DNA of 5,743 nt from the NCBI GenBank assembly GCA_027061995.1, contig JAMOUT010000088.1, forward strand, positions 1-5,743, in the 5' to 3' direction. Below, one piece after another: positions 332 through 5,743 of the stretch. Below the pieces are notes generated by a model that did not search any database, was not told where the DNA came from, and worked only from the letters and a program-made list of their open reading frames with translations. The position numbers and the translations under genes are program-made. Source of the DNA: Candidatus Aminicenantota bacterium (GTDB lineage Bacteria; Acidobacteriota; Aminicenantia; JAMOAD01). The first letter of the stretch is position 1. Every line of letters starts with the position of its first letter.

Positions 332-432
332 GATGGAGGAGGTGTAAATATGTGGTTAAAAACAAGACTGAAATTTCCGATGAAATGAGCGAGAGCTTTA
401 CTTCTCCGCTCGTTAAATGTTTGGGATTTTAA

Positions 433-477
433 ATTTTGTTGAAAAATGTTAAGAAATTGATTAATATTTAAGGAGGA
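433..477 (+). repeat. Peptide-gene leader repeat, copy 1
   Basis: A 36-base block at 433-468 recurs without mismatch at 5455-5490. In both places it is followed (after one extra T here) by AAGGAGGA, the ribosome binding site of a small secreted-peptide gene. The similarity continues across the start codon: 22 of 24 bases match between 485-508 and 5516-5539 in the signal-peptide codons. The block contains TTGAAA, 17 bases, then TAATAT, which looks like a promoter. Transcripts from it would begin inside the ribosome binding site, so a conserved 5' untranslated or recombination segment is at least as likely. Confidence 0.8.
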
Positions 478-481
478 AAAG

Positions 482-697
482 ATGAAAAAAATTTTATTAA
501 TATTAATACTATTTTTCTTTGTTATAGGCTCAATAATTGTTTTCGCTAAGAGTCTTAATGGGGCAGATTCTAAAATTGAAAGAGGATTATGTTTAAAACA
601 TTATGTGATTGTTATTGGTGACGGCGGTCCATGTAAAAAGTTCGTTGATCAAGCAAATGGAGATGTTTATTGGATTTGCAGACCGAAGAAAAAATAA
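482..697 (+). CDS. Small secreted Cys-containing peptide, GGPxC/WxC type (71 aa)
   Basis: I do not recognise a named family, but the build is that of a tiny exported peptide. A Lys start (MKK) leads into a hydrophobic stretch at residues 4-22, then a hydrophilic remainder with cleavage possible around residues 22-28. The mature part has three cysteines, C37, C51 and C66, in the frame C-x13-C-x14-C, with GDGGPC at 46-51 and WIC at 64-66, ending in a basic tail (RPKKK). The peptide at 5507-5722 shares the GGP-x-C and W-x-C signatures and the leader DNA, so the two are paralogues. This copy lacks the paralogue's C44, leaving an odd number of cysteines; intermolecular disulfides or an unpaired thiol are possible. 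The start is fixed by AGGAGG at 471-476, five bases upstream. A strong terminator follows at once, so it is probably transcribed largely on its own. Small exported peptides beside six-bladed propeller genes recall the NVEALA-type peptides of Bacteroidales, but that exact motif is absent. Confidence 0.78.
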   Translation: MKKILLILILFFFVIGSIIVFAKSLNGADSKIERGLCLKHYVIVIGDGGPCKKFVDQANGDVYWICRPKKK

Positions 698-708
698 ATC
701 TTAAAAGA

Positions 709-742
709 GGGGATGGCAATATGTCATCCCCCTTATTTTTTT
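709..742 (+). terminator. Strong intrinsic terminator after the first peptide gene
   Basis: A stem GGGGATGGC (709-717) pairs with GTCATCCCC (723-731), nine pairs including one G-U, around a five-base loop AATAT. CTTA and seven T (736-742) follow. It begins 12 bases after the stop of the peptide gene and stands between it and the propeller lipoprotein at 797. Some read-through into the propeller genes would give much more peptide than propeller transcript. Confidence 0.88.
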
Positions 743-762
743 AGATAATAGGCTAAAAAAAA

Positions 763-789
763 TTGCTGAAAATAATTAATTATTATAGA
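763..789 (+). promoter_or_regulatory. Weak promoter candidate overlapping an AT palindrome
   Basis: TTGCTG (763-768) and TATAGA (784-789) are separated by 15 bases. A perfect 14-base palindrome of A and T (771-784) lies between and overlaps them. Transcription from here would start at about 795-797, on the start codon of the lipoprotein gene, which has no recognisable ribosome binding site. The spacing is short and the region is AT-rich, so chance matches are likely. Confidence 0.25.
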
Positions 790-796
790 ATAGTAA

Positions 797-1873
797 ATGA
801 AAAAAATTATTAAATTATTTTTTATCATAATTATTGTTTTCCATTGTAATTGCGAAAAAAAAGAAATAGTAAAAAAGAATTTGCTCGAAGTCAAACAGAA
901 AATTTTAGAAGATTTAAAATATCCCGAACAACTTTTGATTAATGAAAATGGGATATTCATAAACGATAGTGGGAAAATCTTCTTGTATTCGCTAAATAAA
1001 ATCACCTTAAAAAAAATATTTAACAATAATGGAGATGAATCATGTGGCGAGACAAAGATATTTGTAAATGGAGATAAAATACTTATTTACTATTATAATA
1101 CGGGGGATTTTAAAATATTATCAATTCTTGGTAATACTGTAAAAACAGGAAAAATTTCATCTTTTAACACAACTAACTTGTTGTTATTATCAAATAAAAT
1201 AGTAAGAGTGGCAACTGATTTCAAAGGTGTAAATATAATTCTTCTTGATAACAATCTTCGGGAGATAAAATCAGTATTAAAAATTATTGATAAAGATGAT
1301 AAAAAAGGTAGTATTGAAACAATTAATGTGGATTTTGGTAAAAAAATAAGGAAGAAGAAAAGAAAAGTTTACAAGGGACGGATTTTTGTTGTTTGTAATG
1401 ATAAAAGGTTGTATGTGGCGGATACCACAAATGATTTTTCCGTAAAAGTATTTGACGGAGATGGGAATTATTTGAAGAATATAAGGAAAAGAAAATATAA
1501 GAGAATCAAATGCACGGAAAAATTAAGGAAAATACTTTCTGATATCAATAGAAAGGAATATGAGAATAAGTGTGAAAAGCAAAGGGAATTAATTGATATA
1601 GTAAGGAGGATATATGTAGATGAATATCCTGAATTCATGCCTCCTTTTTCGGATATTTTTGTAAATAACACTAATTTGTTTTTTAAAACTTTTGAATTTG
1701 ACGAAAGTGGAAAAAGTGTGAAATTCATAGTAATGGATTTGGATGGAAAAAATATTAAGATATGTTTTTTGCCAACTCCTTGTGATTTTTTGTATTCATT
1801 TTTTAAGGATAAATATTATTTTTTAAGAAAAAATAAGCAAAAATGGAGCCTTGTGATTAAAAAATGGAATTAA
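797..1873 (+). CDS. Putative beta-propeller lipoprotein, divergent member (358 aa)
   Basis: This is probably an envelope-anchored member of the six-bladed beta-propeller group found at 1902 and 3711. Residues 4-15 form a hydrophobic signal, and C17 or C19 (FHCNC) could be lipidated, although His or Asn before the Cys is unusual for a lipobox. Propeller-like strands include residues 204-230 (LYVADT, then VKVFDGDGNYLKNI). A very basic segment (182-194) and a charged helical insertion (about 238-272) follow. Next comes DEYPEFMPPFSDIFV (275-289), which aligns with FPEYFPAISYFFV in the neighbour. The FGxxGxGPGEF motif of the other two is replaced by FNNNGDESCGET (75-86). The only nearby ATG gives a good signal sequence but lacks a Shine-Dalgarno sequence. 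The next gene starts 28 bases after the stop, so the two form an operon. Ligand and function are unknown; the fold assignment rests mainly on its alignment with the two better members. Confidence 0.72.
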   Translation: MKKIIKLFFIIIIVFHCNCEKKEIVKKNLLEVKQKILEDLKYPEQLLINENGIFINDSGKIFLYSLNKITLKKIFNNNGDESCGETKIFVNGDKILIYYYNTGDFKILSILGNTVKTGKISSFNTTNLLLLSNKIVRVATDFKGVNIILLDNNLREIKSVLKIIDKDDKKGSIETINVDFGKKIRKKKRKVYKGRIFVVCNDKRLYVADTTNDFSVKVFDGDGNYLKNIRKRKYKRIKCTEKLRKILSDINRKEYENKCEKQRELIDIVRRIYVDEYPEFMPPFSDIFVNNTNLFFKTFEFDESGKSVKFIVMDLDGKNIKICFLPTPCDFLYSFFKDKYYFLRKNKQKWSLVIKKWN

Positions 1874-1901
1874 GTAAAAGAAGAAAATTACGGAGGGAGA
1901 G

Positions 1902-2945
1902 ATGATAAAGGAGAAATCAGGAAAAGTTATTTTTTTTATGATATTCATGTTTACCATAGTGGTATCGGTTTTATTAGCAGATGTGCAATCGAAAAAAAAG
2001 ATAGGAATATTAAAGAAAATTTTAGTGGCAAATAGTTTGAAAATCAGAAATAATGATCTGATTATTGTTTCGAATTATAAGGTTTATCATTATGAATTAA
2101 ACGGAGAAAACATAAGGTTTGTTAAATCTTTCGGAAAAAAAGGGGAAGGTCCGGGCGAGTTTAAGACTATTCCTGAAATTATATTAAATAGTAAGAATAT
2201 CATAACTTATACGCCTTATAAGATTATTTTTTTCGATTTTAACGGTAAGCTGAAAAAGGAAATAAGAATGAAAAACAATGGAATATATTTATTATCAAAC
2301 TCAATAATTGTTGAGAGTCTTGATATGATAAAAAAAGGATTTGATGTAAAGTGTTTTGATTTATCGGGAAAATATAAGAGCTATATCTCTTTTATAAGAA
2401 CTCCTGTTTCAATAATTGATTCAGGACAAGAGCATGTATTTGATTTACTTTGTGGTGAAAGTTTATTGGATGTGAGCAAAGATAATATCTTTATTATAAA
2501 AGATTCTCGAAATTTCGTGATTAGTGTTTATAATTCAAAAGGTAAAAAATTGTATGATATAAGTAAAGGTTATAAAAAGATAAAAGTAAGCGATAAAATA
2601 AAAAAAATATACATAAAACGGTTTAAAAAGGAGAAAAAACAAATGCTCAATATAATGAGAAAAATAAATATAAAGGTTAAATTTGCTTTCCCCGAATATT
2701 TTCCTGCTATTTCTTATTTTTTTGTAAGAGGAAATGATTTAATTGTGAAAACTTATGAAAAAAAAGGAGACAAATACAAGTGGTTAATATTGGATAAGAA
2801 AGGAAAAAGTAAAAATGCATTATATTTGAGTGATAAAATAAAAGATACTTTAATTGATTATGATAATCATAGATTCTATTATTTGTTATTTAATGAAGAT
2901 AGTGATTATTATGAATTATATACTGAAAAAAATTCAGGTAATTAA
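1902..2945 (+). CDS. Secreted six-bladed beta-propeller-type protein (347 aa)
   Basis: The product carries an N-terminal signal (hydrophobic residues 9-25, cleavage plausible after LLA at 24-26) with no Cys for lipidation, so it is likely periplasmic or released. FGKKGEGPGEF at 77-87 is the characteristic motif of six-bladed beta-propeller proteins of the NHL/TolB-like kind. Repeating strand-turn units include residues 106-121 (KIIFFDFNGKLKKEI), 148-161 and 195-222 (IFIIKDSRN, then ISVYNSKGKKLYDI). A Lys-rich helical insertion (about 228-260) precedes FPEYFPAI (263-270) and the last blades. The start is supported by GGAGG at 1892-1896. It sits 28 bases behind the propeller at 797 and is clearly related to it, so the pair probably arose by duplication. 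No catalytic residues are evident. Binding of a small molecule, a peptide or another envelope protein is the usual inference for this fold. No terminator is visible after the stop. Confidence 0.82.
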   Translation: MIKEKSGKVIFFMIFMFTIVVSVLLADVQSKKKIGILKKILVANSLKIRNNDLIIVSNYKVYHYELNGENIRFVKSFGKKGEGPGEFKTIPEIILNSKNIITYTPYKIIFFDFNGKLKKEIRMKNNGIYLLSNSIIVESLDMIKKGFDVKCFDLSGKYKSYISFIRTPVSIIDSGQEHVFDLLCGESLLDVSKDNIFIIKDSRNFVISVYNSKGKKLYDISKGYKKIKVSDKIKKIYIKRFKKEKKQMLNIMRKINIKVKFAFPEYFPAISYFFVRGNDLIVKTYEKKGDKYKWLILDKKGKSKNALYLSDKIKDTLIDYDNHRFYYLLFNEDSDYYELYTEKNSGN

Positions 2946-3135
2946 TTCAATATTTCGGTTTGAAAGTTAATACAATCCTTATAAGAAACAAAATTTTTAG
3001 CAAAGAAGGAAAGACAAAATATTGTAAGAGATATAAGTAAAATACAAGCCCGGAAGGCTGCCTAAAAATGATTTAATGACTTATTACGAGCTTTATTAAT
3101 AGACTTAAAGAAAATTCAAAAAATTTCAAAACCAC
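2946..3135 (+). other. Non-coding left half of the 461-bp regulatory gap
   Basis: I see no gene here. The only structures are short weak stems: TTCAA/TTGAA at 2946-2964, AGCC/GGCT around CGGAA at 3047-3059, and CTTTA/TAAAG at 3091-3110. None is followed by a T-run. The transcript of the two upstream propeller genes therefore has no obvious intrinsic terminator and may run on into the next unit or end by another route. Confidence 0.5.
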
Positions 3136-3164
3136 TTGACAAATTACAGTTTCTTTCTTATATT
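3136..3164 (+). promoter_or_regulatory. Near-consensus sigma70-type promoter
   Basis: A perfect -35 box TTGACA (3136-3141), a 17-base spacer and TATATT (3159-3164, five of six matches to TATAAT) make this the best promoter in the window. Transcription would begin at about 3170-3173, giving a leader of roughly 235 bases before the peptide gene at 3407. That leader contains the small ORF, the CT tract and the anti-Shine-Dalgarno element. It probably drives the 3407-5341 cluster. Confidence 0.75.
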
Positions 3165-3196
3165 AAATAATTATGATTAAAGGCGGAAAAATTAAG

Positions 3197-3289
3197 ATGG
3201 TAGGATTAAAGGGAACGAACGGTTTTACTCTCTCTCTCTCTCTCTCTGTAAAGATTGGATTTACTGTGAATTTGTTAATAATAAATTAA
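3197..3289 (+). CDS. Candidate leader-peptide ORF with CT tract (30 aa, or 38 aa from ATG 3173)
   Basis: The ORF starts at ATG 3197, preceded by an AGGCGG ribosome-binding-like site (3181-3186) at a spacing of ten bases. An in-frame ATG at 3173 lies almost on the predicted transcription start and would be leaderless. The (CT)10 tract encodes alternating Leu and Ser after the sequence NGFT, and the product ends in a short hydrophobic stretch (VNLLIIN). The TAA at 3287-3289 lies one base before an anti-Shine-Dalgarno element for the peptide gene at 3407. That is the geometry of a translational attenuator, where translation of the leader ORF frees the downstream site. One extra CT unit would stop translation at 3249-3251; one fewer would move the stop to 3298-3300. 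GFTL also recalls the cleavage site of type IV prepilins, but the ORF is too short and lacks the usual Glu. It could equally be an untranslated chance frame. Confidence 0.35.
   Translation: MVGLKGTNGFTLSLSLSVKIGFTVNLLIIN
3228..3247 (+). repeat. (CT)10 dinucleotide microsatellite
   Basis: Twenty bases of uninterrupted CT lie about 57-76 bases downstream of the predicted transcription start and inside the small leader ORF. Such tracts are prone to slipped-strand changes of two bases, which here would change the reading frame and the position at which leader translation ends. Confidence 0.95.
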
Positions 3290-3290
3290 A

Positions 3291-3399
3291 ACCTCCGTGA
3301 TGAAAACCGAAAAAGAAAATTAGGAAGTTACAAAGCTTTCGACTTTTGCAATTATGCAAAAGATAAATTTAATTAAAATTTAAAAAATTAAACGGAGGT
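3291..3399 (+). promoter_or_regulatory. Shine-Dalgarno sequestering leader structure of peptide gene 3407
   Basis: ACCTCCGT at 3291-3298 is the exact reverse complement of ACGGAGGT at 3392-3399, the ribosome binding site of the gene at 3407 (spacing seven bases). Pairing would close a 93-base loop. Inside it are a perfect 8-bp hairpin (3343-3362) and a weaker AAATTT/AAATTT stem (3365-3381), which bring the two arms closer together. The upstream small ORF stops at 3287-3289, so a ribosome finishing there would cover the anti-site. A translational attenuator, a ligand-sensing leader or a thermosensor are all compatible; the complementarity itself is seen directly. Confidence 0.55.
3343..3362 (+). 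promoter_or_regulatory. Perfect 8-bp hairpin or operator-like inverted repeat
   Basis: CTTTTGCA (3343-3350) and TGCAAAAG (3355-3362) are exact complements around the four-base loop ATTA. It lies in the leader of the peptide gene, within the loop closed by the anti-Shine-Dalgarno pairing. No T-run follows, so it is not a terminator. It may help fold the leader, or be a protein-binding palindrome in DNA. Confidence 0.5.
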
Positions 3400-3406
3400 A
3401 AGAAAG

Positions 3407-3646
3407 ATGAATAATAAAATAGGCAAAAGAAAGATAGAAAAGATTTTGTTTTCTGTTTTATTAAGCATATTGTTGATCGTAGGGGTGTTTGTTACTTCTT
3501 TAATTACACAGAGTGATGTTATCGCAATGTCAGCGGGGGATTCTATATGTTGGACCGGAGTATCGTGCTATCATGTTGGTCAGAAATGTAATGTTAGTTG
3601 TGATTGTAACTGGATAGGAATATGTAAGTACGAATATGTAAAATAA
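3407..3646 (+). CDS. Small secreted six-cysteine peptide (79 aa)
   Basis: This is a tiny exported peptide without a family I can name. A basic start (MNNKIGKRKIEK) is followed by a hydrophobic core at about residues 14-34 and cleavage near VIA-MSA-GDS (38-46). That position is comparable to where the NVEALA motif sits in Bacteroidales peptides. The mature part of about 35 residues holds six cysteines, C48, C54, C61, C65, C67 and C73, enough for three disulfides, and ends in a short charged tail. The final NWIGIC resembles the W-x-C end of the peptides at 482 and 5507, so it is probably a diverged relative. Its leader is different from theirs: it has its own promoter (3136-3164) and a ribosome binding site, ACGGAGGT, that can be masked. 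A 14-bp hairpin separates it from the propeller lipoprotein 64 bases downstream. Signal, toxin, adhesion or ligand roles are all open. Confidence 0.8.
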   Translation: MNNKIGKRKIEKILFSVLLSILLIVGVFVTSLITQSDVIAMSAGDSICWTGVSCYHVGQKCNVSCDCNWIGICKYEYVK

Positions 3647-3660
3647 ATAATATAACAAAT

Positions 3661-3693
3661 AAGAGAACGGGCTTTTTATAAGCCCGTTCTCTT
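3661..3693 (+). terminator. Perfect 14-bp hairpin between peptide and lipoprotein genes
   Basis: AAGAGAACGGGCTT (3661-3674) pairs without mismatch with 3680-3693 around the loop TTTAT, and one further T-A pair (3660/3694) is possible. The 3' side reads TTAATATAAGG with no T-run, so termination on the + strand would be inefficient. It could instead block 3'-to-5' decay and so protect the peptide transcript, or act as a partial terminator setting a high peptide-to-propeller ratio. The ribosome binding site of the next gene begins six bases later. Confidence 0.7.
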
Positions 3694-3710
3694 AATATAA
3701 GGAGAAGAAT

Positions 3711-4841
3711 ATGAAAGGAAATATTAAGATTTTTATTATTGTTTCTTTTATATTAATAGTTTTTCAAGGATGCGAAGAAAGAAAAAAGATAAAGCATTTT
3801 GATTTATTAGCATCGAAAAAAACTATTGGTGTTTACGGTGGAAATTATAGGGGGGTTTTCTCTTTTAGAGTTGATAAAGAAGGTTCGGTATATATTGGAA
3901 ATGGTAAAAAGGTTTGTATTGATAAATATGAGAGAAACGGAAAGTATTTATATTCTTTCGGGAGAAGGGGGAACGGACCTGGTGAATTTCAATGGGTACC
4001 TTTTATTTGCTTTGATAATAATTTGAATTTATATGCCATAAATAATAATAAATTGCAAATATTTAACAAAAACGGAATATTCAAAAAATCTGTAAAAATT
4101 CCGGATAATCCCGAATGGGGATATCTTCAAAATATAGAATATGTTTACGAAAATAAAGTTATTCTTACTTATGAAAATTCTTTTAGATATCGATTTGTTT
4201 TGTATGATTTTAATACAGTAGAGGAAAGAATTTTACTAAGGGATGAGAAAAAATATAGTGAAAAGGCTATGAAATTTCATAATCTTCTCGCCCGTTTTAC
4301 CCCTGCTATTTTTGTTGATAAAGATGGCAACATATATATTGCCGATTCGGTTGACTATAAAATTTATATTTTTGATAAAAACGGAAAATATAAAAGAACA
4401 TTTGAAAAAAAATACAGACACATAAAAATAGATTTAGCTAAAGATTTTATATTGCCAAATATAAAGAGCAAGAGACTATTAAAAGAGCTTAAATCCGGAA
4501 TTACATTAATAAAAATGGCTATTAAAAAAATAGGAGGAATTTACGAGAACTATCCCGATATTATCGGCTTAAATATTGATAATAATAAGATATATATATG
4601 GTCTTCAAAAAGGGATATTAACGGATACGGATATATAGTTGATATTTATAATAAAAATTTCAGACTTTTGGAAAAAAGAAATTATTATGATGATCTTAGA
4701 CATCGTATTGTTATTCGGAATAATTTTCTTTATATACCTGATATATTGCCGGAGAAAAATGAAAAAGTTGGCAGAGTCAGTTGGGCATTATATTCTCTCG
4801 GAACATCCGAAAAAATATTAAAATTTAAATTAAAATCATGA
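3711..4841 (+). CDS. Six-bladed beta-propeller lipoprotein (376 aa)
   Basis: This is the clearest propeller of the window. A lipoprotein signal (hydrophobic residues 5-18, lipobox FQGC with C21) is followed by Glu-Glu-Arg, so it is probably anchored in an envelope membrane. FGRRGNGPGEF (83-93) is the hallmark motif. Strand units with Asp-x-x-Gly turns recur at about 52-82, 98-121 (FDNNLNLYAI, KLQIFNKNG) and 200-231 (FVDKDGNIYIADS, then IYIFDKNGKYKRTF). A helical insertion spans about 241-276, ending near YENYPDII (278-285), the place where the 797 and 1902 products carry a PE(F/Y)xP motif; further blades run to about 365. AAGGAG at 3699-3704, six bases upstream, fixes the start. The last codon overlaps the start of the thioredoxin-like gene (ATGA), indicating translational coupling. 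No catalytic site is visible. A binding or scaffold role with the neighbouring peptide is inferred from gene order only. Confidence 0.85.
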   Translation: MKGNIKIFIIVSFILIVFQGCEERKKIKHFDLLASKKTIGVYGGNYRGVFSFRVDKEGSVYIGNGKKVCIDKYERNGKYLYSFGRRGNGPGEFQWVPFICFDNNLNLYAINNNKLQIFNKNGIFKKSVKIPDNPEWGYLQNIEYVYENKVILTYENSFRYRFVLYDFNTVEERILLRDEKKYSEKAMKFHNLLARFTPAIFVDKDGNIYIADSVDYKIYIFDKNGKYKRTFEKKYRHIKIDLAKDFILPNIKSKRLLKELKSGITLIKMAIKKIGGIYENYPDIIGLNIDNNKIYIWSSKRDINGYGYIVDIYNKNFRLLEKRNYYDDLRHRIVIRNNFLYIPDILPEKNEKVGRVSWALYSLGTSEKILKFKLKS

Positions 4842-5341
4842 ATAAAAAAACATGGATTTTTTTTAGTATTGTTTCTGTTTTTGTTAATGTTTTATTAGTT
4901 TATTTATTGAATTACAATTTAAATCTAAGAAGGAAAATCATTTTGAGAGACAATTATAAACACGAAATTAAAATTAACTCCGTCAAAAGCAAATTTAATG
5001 TTATTGTTTTACTAACAAACAAGAAACAGTGTTATGTTGGTATTTCTTCATCCTTTATAAAGTCTTTATTGAAGAAAAAAAAGAATCATTCAAGTGTTTA
5101 TTTTGTAGTTGAAAAGAAAGAGAAAAATGAAATAGACAAAATACGGGAGAAATTTAAAGTCAGGAATCTCTATTATGATCTGAATAATTCCATATGCTTG
5201 AGACTGGGAGGAGTGTTCCCTTCTATAGTTATTGTTGACAATAAAAGCAATATTATTTTTTATTCACCTATTTTTTCAAATGAGAAGATGAATAAGCTGC
5301 TATTAAATAGAATTAATCAAATTGTAAATTTACCAATATAA
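4838..5341 (+). CDS. Membrane-anchored thioredoxin-like protein lacking CxxC (167 aa)
   Basis: One N-terminal membrane segment (residues 6-25) precedes a domain whose strand-helix order fits a small thioredoxin fold. Strand NVIVLLT (54-60) leads to NKKQC with C65 at the usual active-site place. After a helix come strand SVYFVVE (86-92) and helix EIDKIREKF (98-106). GGVFPSIVIVDNKSNIIFY (124-142) then matches the cis-proline region (TPT-xx-D-x-x-G-x-I) of thioredoxin-like proteins. The second active-site Cys is missing (C-Y-V-G instead of C-x-x-C); the only other cysteine is C120. It may therefore work with a single thiol, pair C65 with C120, or have lost redox activity. With no signal cleavage site evident, it should face the periplasm from the inner membrane. 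Start and stop overlap the upstream propeller gene by four bases, and no separate ribosome binding site is needed. Its position beside Cys-rich exported peptides suggests a role in their thiol chemistry, which is inference. Confidence 0.7.
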   Translation: MNKKTWIFFSIVSVFVNVLLVYLLNYNLNLRRKIILRDNYKHEIKINSVKSKFNVIVLLTNKKQCYVGISSSFIKSLLKKKKNHSSVYFVVEKKEKNEIDKIREKFKVRNLYYDLNNSICLRLGGVFPSIVIVDNKSNIIFYSPIFSNEKMNKLLLNRINQIVNLPI

Positions 5342-5454
5342 TATTTATTTATAAAAAGCTTCGTATCTTATTAAAGAAAACGGTATTAGGATGAGAAAAG
5401 GGAAAAGAAGAAGCTATATTTAGGTATTTTTACAGATGATTTTTCGGTTTTTAT

Positions 5455-5498
5455 ATTTTGTTGAAAAATGTTAAGAAATTGATTAATATTAAGGAGGA
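5455..5498 (+). repeat. Peptide-gene leader repeat, copy 2
   Basis: The first 36 bases (5455-5490) are identical to 433-468, followed directly by AAGGAGGA, the ribosome binding site of the peptide at 5507. The sequence upstream of 5455 differs from that upstream of 433 apart from T-richness, so the repeat has a definite left edge. On the right the similarity fades within the signal-peptide codons. A terminator for the thioredoxin-like gene was not seen in the 113 bases between 5342 and 5454. Confidence 0.8.
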
Positions 5499-5506
5499 TA
5501 GGTAAG

Positions 5507-5722
5507 ATGAGTAAGAAAAAAATTCTATCAATATTAATAATTAGTTTGATGGTTTTGGGGACTATAATGTTTGTGGCGAACAACCTTCAAGCGAAAATGG
5601 ATGCAGGAGAAGGATGTGATAAAGTAAAGAGTCGCTGCACAAACGGTGGAGGACCTTTGTGTGCTACGGTTACAGAAGGAAATATAACTTGGTATTGCTA
5701 TTATGGTGCTATAGAAAGATAA
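5507..5722 (+). CDS. Small secreted Cys-containing peptide, GGPxC/WxC type (71 aa)
   Basis: This is a paralogue of the peptide at 482 and has exactly the same length. A basic start (MSKKK) leads into hydrophobic residues 6-23, then NNLQAKMDAGEGC, where cleavage probably falls between residues 29 and 34. The mature part has four cysteines, C37, C44, C52 and C64, allowing two disulfides, with GGGPLC at 47-52 and WYC at 62-64. C37, the GGP-x-C cysteine and W-x-C align with the first peptide, and C44 is extra. The 36-base leader is shared; similarity drops after the signal region, the pattern expected of a family with a fixed export part and a diversifying mature part. AAGGAGG at 5491-5497 lies nine bases upstream of the start. 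By analogy with the two earlier units, a propeller gene may follow beyond the right edge. Confidence 0.8.
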   Translation: MSKKKILSILIISLMVLGTIMFVANNLQAKMDAGEGCDKVKSRCTNGGGPLCATVTEGNITWYCYYGAIER

Positions 5723-5743
5723 TTAATAATCGGAAGCTTATCC

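Follow-up and report, generated by a model that had tools for sequence, protein, structure and literature searches.

Three peptide-propeller units on one contig

The window, the whole stretch of 5,743 nucleotides analysed here, is the complete contig C88 (5.7 kb) of a metagenome-assembled genome of Candidatus Aminicenantota bacterium (2.36 Mb in 104 contigs, 95% complete). It encodes three small exported open reading frames (ORFs), three beta-propellers and one thioredoxin-like ORF, all on the + strand and arranged in units in which a peptide gene precedes a hairpin and a propeller gene. By their sequences, these units look like cassettes of cognate peptide-propeller pairs, and they belong to a real, widespread bacterial peptide system whose purpose is still unexplained. 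The features are as follows.

417..468, +: leader element copy 1; core 439-468 (30 bp), then AAGGAGG ribosome-binding site
482..697, +: exported peptide 1; 71 aa, 3 Cys in mature part
705..734, +: intercistronic hairpin 1; terminator-like, T-rich tail; z -4.0 for 695-796
797..1873, +: propeller 1; divergent copy, degenerate GPGEF
1902..2945, +: propeller 2; GPGEF
3362..3401, +: unit 2 degenerate leader and ribosome-binding site
3407..3646, +: exported peptide 2; 79 aa, 6 Cys
3660..3694, +: intercistronic hairpin 2; 15-bp perfect stem; z -7.7 for 3644-3710
3711..4841, +: propeller 3; GPGEF; NHL/DUF5128-like six-bladed type
4838..5341, +: membrane-anchored thioredoxin-fold protein; 4-bp overlap with propeller 3; CxxC degenerate (CYVG)
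5439..5490, +: leader element copy 2; 30-bp core 5461-5490
5507..5722, +: exported peptide 3; 71 aa, 4 Cys; near-identical to contig C30 peptide
5731..5743, +: third hairpin, left arm only, by alignment to C30; cut by contig end

The first-pass annotation, made from the letters of the DNA, had proposed two complete units and the start of a third, and the ORFs lie where it placed them. Unit 1 consists of leader, peptide, hairpin and two propellers, while unit 2 consists of peptide, hairpin, propeller and thioredoxin-like gene. The "second exported protein" expected in each unit is thus the thioredoxin-like protein in unit 2 but itself a propeller in unit 1. Unit 3 comprises the second leader copy and a peptide, and its hairpin is interrupted by the contig end. 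Contig C30 carries this stretch at ~97% identity, and there the unit goes on as peptide, thioredoxin-like gene and propeller. Because the stretch is repeated there, the contig end falls inside the left arm of the third hairpin, and unit 3 was therefore cut by assembly and has no natural end here. By eye, every ORF begins with a hydrophobic segment, in agreement with the export signal or anchor claimed for all products.

The cassette recurs in the class and in Bacteroidales

Further copies of the cassette lie at other places in this genome, in two relatives from the same family but another genus, and in four other families of the class. In the two relatives, G003 and G004, peptide, propeller and CxxC thioredoxin-like genes form long arrays. 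The class-wide survey used a profile built on the family peptides and covered 142 genomes. It gave 15 short-ORF matches outside the family, of which 14 adjoin a propeller, and most also a thioredoxin-like gene; the original profile scored 11 of these 14, and a profile rebuilt with class members the other 3. Longer-ORF matches outside the family never had a propeller (0/12) and are false positives of the signal segment.

The linkage of NVEALA peptides (PF14055) to six-bladed propellers had been suggested as a parallel. A back-translated NVEALA pattern yielded at least 73 NVEALA peptide genes in Bacteroidales. Among the matches listed, 53 of 63 genes directly downstream matched the propeller profile; of the distant ORFs, 21 of 114 (18%) did. 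The window-type and Bacteroidales propellers are themselves homologous by profile-profile comparison (hhalign, 99.4%, E 1.8e-21). The parallel therefore holds in layout, propellers and hairpin: NVEALA loci, like the window, have a small exported peptide with a Cys-rich variable end, a hairpin and a homologous DUF5128/TolB_like propeller directly downstream, with a thioredoxin-like protein in many loci. Conversely, the window units have the NVEALA-type architecture, with the propeller directly downstream and the hairpin between. A few NVEALA loci (L100, L114, L122, L165) have a signal peptidase S26 gene close by, which may encode a dedicated processing enzyme; no such gene was seen adjacent to window-type units.

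These data support co-occurrence from the peptide side, where peptides almost always adjoin propellers in the family, the class and Bacteroidales. Viewed from the propellers, linkage depends on how widely they are defined. About 7 of 24 profile matches in this genome share a unit with a peptide, so in the wide sense propellers are mostly without peptides, but in the high-scoring core clade 7 of 10 have one. The three core-clade propellers without a peptide still carry the shared leader described below.

The peptides are a separate family with variable mature parts

Searches of Pfam and NCBIfam gave no name for any of the three window peptides. The NVEALA hidden Markov model (HMM) did not match them, and its best matches in the whole genome were under the cut-off and at other places. 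The NVEALA motif after the hydrophobic segment is absent in 14 of 14 aligned family peptides, and the family and NVEALA alignments could be aligned over 25 signal columns only. NVEALA family membership by sequence was thus ruled out by HMM, motif and alignment; the signal segment alone aligns. The supposed contrast in cysteine signatures proved weaker than first described, as NVEALA Cys patterns are also variable (mostly 2, 4 or 6).

Within this genome the signals of different peptides are alike and the mature parts are not. A conserved signal followed by a variable mature part is the pattern of animal toxin families. A variant of 138-143 aa occurs in three genomes (L011:104-520, L224:2960-3391, L220:12500-12922), in which a strongly conserved C-terminal Cys-rich domain, CCAxCxGGFxACGSxGVCC...CCxxGCPC, stands behind an N-terminal domain of no known type. 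In both relatives a type-C peptide is followed by an exported protein of ~315 aa (L219:8685-9632, L225:4329-5285).

Mature peptides and propellers diversify together

Across 29 peptide-propeller pairs, similarity of the mature peptides correlated with that of the propellers (r=0.87, Mantel), compared with 0.31 for signal and propeller, although orthologous units inherited together drive much of the 0.87 and the permutation test for pairing ignores phylogeny. Among the matches listed, 44 independent Bacteroidales pairs gave 0.467 for mature part and propeller (p 3e-4) and -0.015 for signal and propeller (p 0.63). With the signal segment as internal control for relatedness, propeller and mature part appear to diversify together.

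A hairpin follows the peptide gene

The hairpins noticed in units 1 and 2 are far stronger than expected by chance, with dinucleotide-shuffle z values of -4.0 (695-796) and -7.7 (3644-3710). All 15 gaps between peptide and downstream gene tested in the family fold much better than dinucleotide shuffles (z -2.5 to -8.9); the position of the hairpin is conserved and its sequence differs in each. None of 19 control gaps in family loci fell under -4 (mononucleotide shuffles). Of the Bacteroidales NVEALA-propeller gaps among the matches listed, 79% of 47 were under -2, versus 6.7% of 45 control gaps. Class-level units farther out have a hairpin in most cases, not in all. Some hairpins are followed by a T-rich tail and others are not, so attenuation and 3'-end protection are both possible.

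The propellers and the thioredoxin-like proteins

The GPGEF motif or its degenerate form was present in each propeller, as KKGEGPGEF in 1902, RRGNGPGEF in 3711 and DESCGE in 797. The sequences show a helical insertion ahead of PE(F/Y)xP, as does the model of 3711, with helices at 242-247 and 254-274. The propellers had been called lipoproteins, a label that holds in part: 797 and 3711 have a plausible lipobox-like Cys and 1902 has none. Propeller 3 (3711-4841) scored 21.2 bits against DUF5128 (PF17170), under the 22.9-bit gathering cut-off, and another propeller of this genome scored 29.3 bits. Fold, the GxGPxE motif and profile homology are common to the window propellers and DUF5128, TolB_like (PF15869) and DUF4934 (PF16288), the window propellers falling just under the Pfam cut-off. 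A scan of genome contigs with a C4 propeller as query found nothing. The structural model of propeller 3 (pLDDT 68) resembled NHL six-bladed domains (VIA Z about 20, rmsd 3.4 over ~250 residues) and the Bacteroides protein 3s9j (VIA Z 19.3, rmsd 4.4, 291 residues). Structural matches also included LRP6 propellers bound to Dkk1 or to disulfide-constrained peptides. A six-bladed propeller of B. thetaiotaomicron is listed among iron-responsive genes in one paper (PMC10434189).

Lower-scoring propellers of the superfamily adjoin RND pumps, ABC transporters, C39-peptidase exporters and radical SAM proteins, which suggests that the superfamily generally accompanies exported peptides. In G003 and G004, the neighbours of the propellers at L228, L230 and L231 are ABC transporters, C39-peptidase exporters among them, and radical SAM proteins.

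The model of the window thioredoxin-like protein, of modest quality (pLDDT 67.6, pTM 0.42), had thiol-disulfide oxidoreductases as its top Foldseek matches (E 2.4e-5). Homologous genes in the same position keep a CxxC motif (CPAC, CSVC, CHDC, CGTC), and a Pfam AhpC-TSA match of a class member (E 1e-12) supports the thioredoxin assignment. This protein had been taken to set unit 2 apart from NVEALA loci; it is indeed present in unit 2, but such proteins are frequent in Bacteroidales too, where 27 of 65 NVEALA loci (among the matches listed) have a lipoprotein with a CxSC thioredoxin-like part. These lipoproteins carry a C-terminal DUF1573 in 23 of 23 aligned members, whereas the window type is short, membrane-anchored and without DUF1573. 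Profile comparison of the two types gave no convincing homology, and the resemblance is therefore one of fold and position only.

NHLRC2 and SUPPRESSOR OF QUENCHING 1 (SOQ1) were both distant matches of the propeller profile, and SOQ1 also of the thioredoxin-like model. In these proteins thioredoxin-type and NHL-type domains work together. Unlike in the cassettes, the two domains are fused there and no peptide gene is involved.

A shared leader precedes the units

The leader copies of units 1 and 3 (417-468, 5439-5490) have 52 bp in common at 92% identity, and the unit 2 leader is a degenerate version. The 30-bp core, TTGAAAAATGTTAAGAAATTGATTAATATT, has exactly 9 copies in the genome and 0 in a reversed control. 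It was not found in the 59 relatives searched with up to 3 mismatches, and is therefore specific to this genome at that threshold. All nine cores head cassette-type units (for the 5461 copy the propeller lies beyond the contig end). Six precede a peptide; in C20 the core stands before a propeller and a thioredoxin-like gene without a peptide, and in C21 and C101 before a truncated thioredoxin-like gene and a propeller. A full-length version of the truncated gene, with a peptide before it, is found in relative G003 (L222:9921-11923). This comparison suggests that the fusion of leader and truncated gene arose by deletion or recombination at the leader.

A sigma-70-like pattern, TTGAAA-17-TAATAT, can be fitted to the leader, but it lies so near the ribosome-binding site that this stretch could instead be leader RNA. 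The leader may thus be a promoter, a leader RNA or a recombination boundary. Rfam searches of the leader and the hairpins gave no match.

Related leaders were seen at two further places. In contig C94 (L237, about 3484-5070, - strand) one stands before a 45-aa CEKCC peptide, which a hairpin separates from a radical SAM gene. The peptide, MLKKIKTNNSIIRTIVLESKNQCEKCCKIGRPYTETYREYHKPKV, has no obvious signal, and the locus looks like a precursor of a ribosomally synthesized and post-translationally modified peptide with its maturase under a related leader. A decayed peptide in C29 also stands behind a related leader.

What the cassettes may do

Taken together, co-occurrence in the family, the class and Bacteroidales supports the earlier proposal of an uncharacterised envelope peptide system. 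We consider it somewhat better than even (about 0.55) that each unit is a cognate peptide-propeller cassette in which the propeller is a specific receptor or immunity partner and the thioredoxin-like protein a folding helper. A small precursor with a conserved signal segment would be exported, and its hypervariable, usually Cys-rich mature part would be released and disulfide-bonded, probably with the help of the thioredoxin-fold membrane protein where present. The propeller encoded just downstream, in the periplasm or anchored at the surface, would bind the mature peptide and act as its dedicated receptor or immunity partner. Through the hairpin behind the peptide gene, the cell may make more peptide than propeller. 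More tentatively, and at somewhat less than even odds, the cassettes represent a hitherto undescribed kind of exported peptide that Bacteroidales share with a distant class, in which the signal is conserved and the mature part hypervariable, each peptide has a propeller of its own as specificity partner (receptor or immunity protein), and cassettes are swapped; such a design would be comparable to animal toxin gene families or toxin-immunity polymorphism.

Besides inherited orthologous units and the phylogeny-blind permutation test, several findings weigh against the cassette reading. A few class-level peptides have little or no Cys (L243, L244), so disulfides can explain only part of the system. 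No hairpin is present in three class-level gaps (L243, L244, L257). The window thioredoxin-like protein has no CxxC (CYVG), several units have no thioredoxin gene, and most lower-scoring propellers of the genome have no adjoining peptide.

Our guess at the purpose puts bacteriocin-like antagonism first and signalling next, and takes an enzyme like methylamine dehydrogenase to be unlikely. Antagonism, with the peptide as a secreted antibacterial, the propeller as its specific immunity protein and peptide-less propellers as orphan immunity genes, is possible but well short of even odds. It would account for the hypervariable mature part behind a conserved signal, the cognate pairing, several unrelated pairs per genome, tandem propellers, peptide-less propellers on the same leader (C20, C21, C101), and the export pumps (RND, C39-ABC) that adjoin related propellers. 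However, a thioredoxin-like gene is not typical of such systems, propellers are not known to serve in immunity, and a search with defence models gave one weak PDC-S15 match, on a helical stretch. Membership in a defence system was rejected, as this weak match was the sole one.

Peptide signalling or surface recognition, in which the propeller serves as receptor and the strain's own peptide as its ligand, much as six-bladed LRP6 propellers bind Cys-rich Dkk1, is rather unlikely. Cognate pairing and the LRP6 complexes with Dkk1 or disulfide-constrained peptides among the structural matches are consistent with it, but no kinase, sigma/anti-sigma or other transmembrane signalling gene recurs next to the units.

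The mau and quinohemoprotein amine dehydrogenase systems comprise a small disulfide-rich exported subunit, a propeller, and thioredoxin-like and MauE maturation proteins. A comparable two-subunit enzyme matured by MauD/MauE-like proteins would fit the small exported Cys-rich chain, propeller and thioredoxin-like protein, and a MauE homologue directly adjoins one unit (L257, PF07291 91 bits). We regard it as improbable, since the cassettes lack a conserved Trp/Cys cofactor pattern (tryptophan tryptophylquinone or cysteine tryptophylquinone), the mature peptides share no Trp pattern and are completely different between units, MauE is usually elsewhere, and no heme or quinone genes were seen. MauE was ruled out as a regular cassette part, being propeller-linked in two places only. 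The L257 homologue (514-1236) stands between a second Cys-rich peptide, which it follows directly, and a peptide-propeller-thioredoxin unit.

Incidental linkage, in which a mobile or recombining leader repeat has scattered exported proteins that have nothing to do with one another, is very improbable: the 30-bp core is identical in 9 places, several contigs break at repeats and the leader is fused to a truncated thioredoxin-like gene at C101/C21, but the same gene order occurs without the leader in other genera, families and Bacteroidales.

In the literature searched there was no description of the system and no paper on NVEALA. Gut Bacteroidales have NVEALA peptides and DUF5128/TolB_like propellers in abundance, and the papers searched assign no function to either. 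The same cassette in an unrelated class, together with co-diversification of mature peptide and propeller but not of the signal, unites the two annotation families in a single testable hypothesis, that of a peptide with its specific partner, and tractable Bacteroides strains offer a way to test it.

Repeats at the start of the window

Positions 1-400 of the window are a repeat mosaic with AAGCTTCGA-type palindromes; when positions 60-500 (441 bp) were used as query, 38 matching places turned up in the genome. Repeats of this type form the ends of many short contigs.

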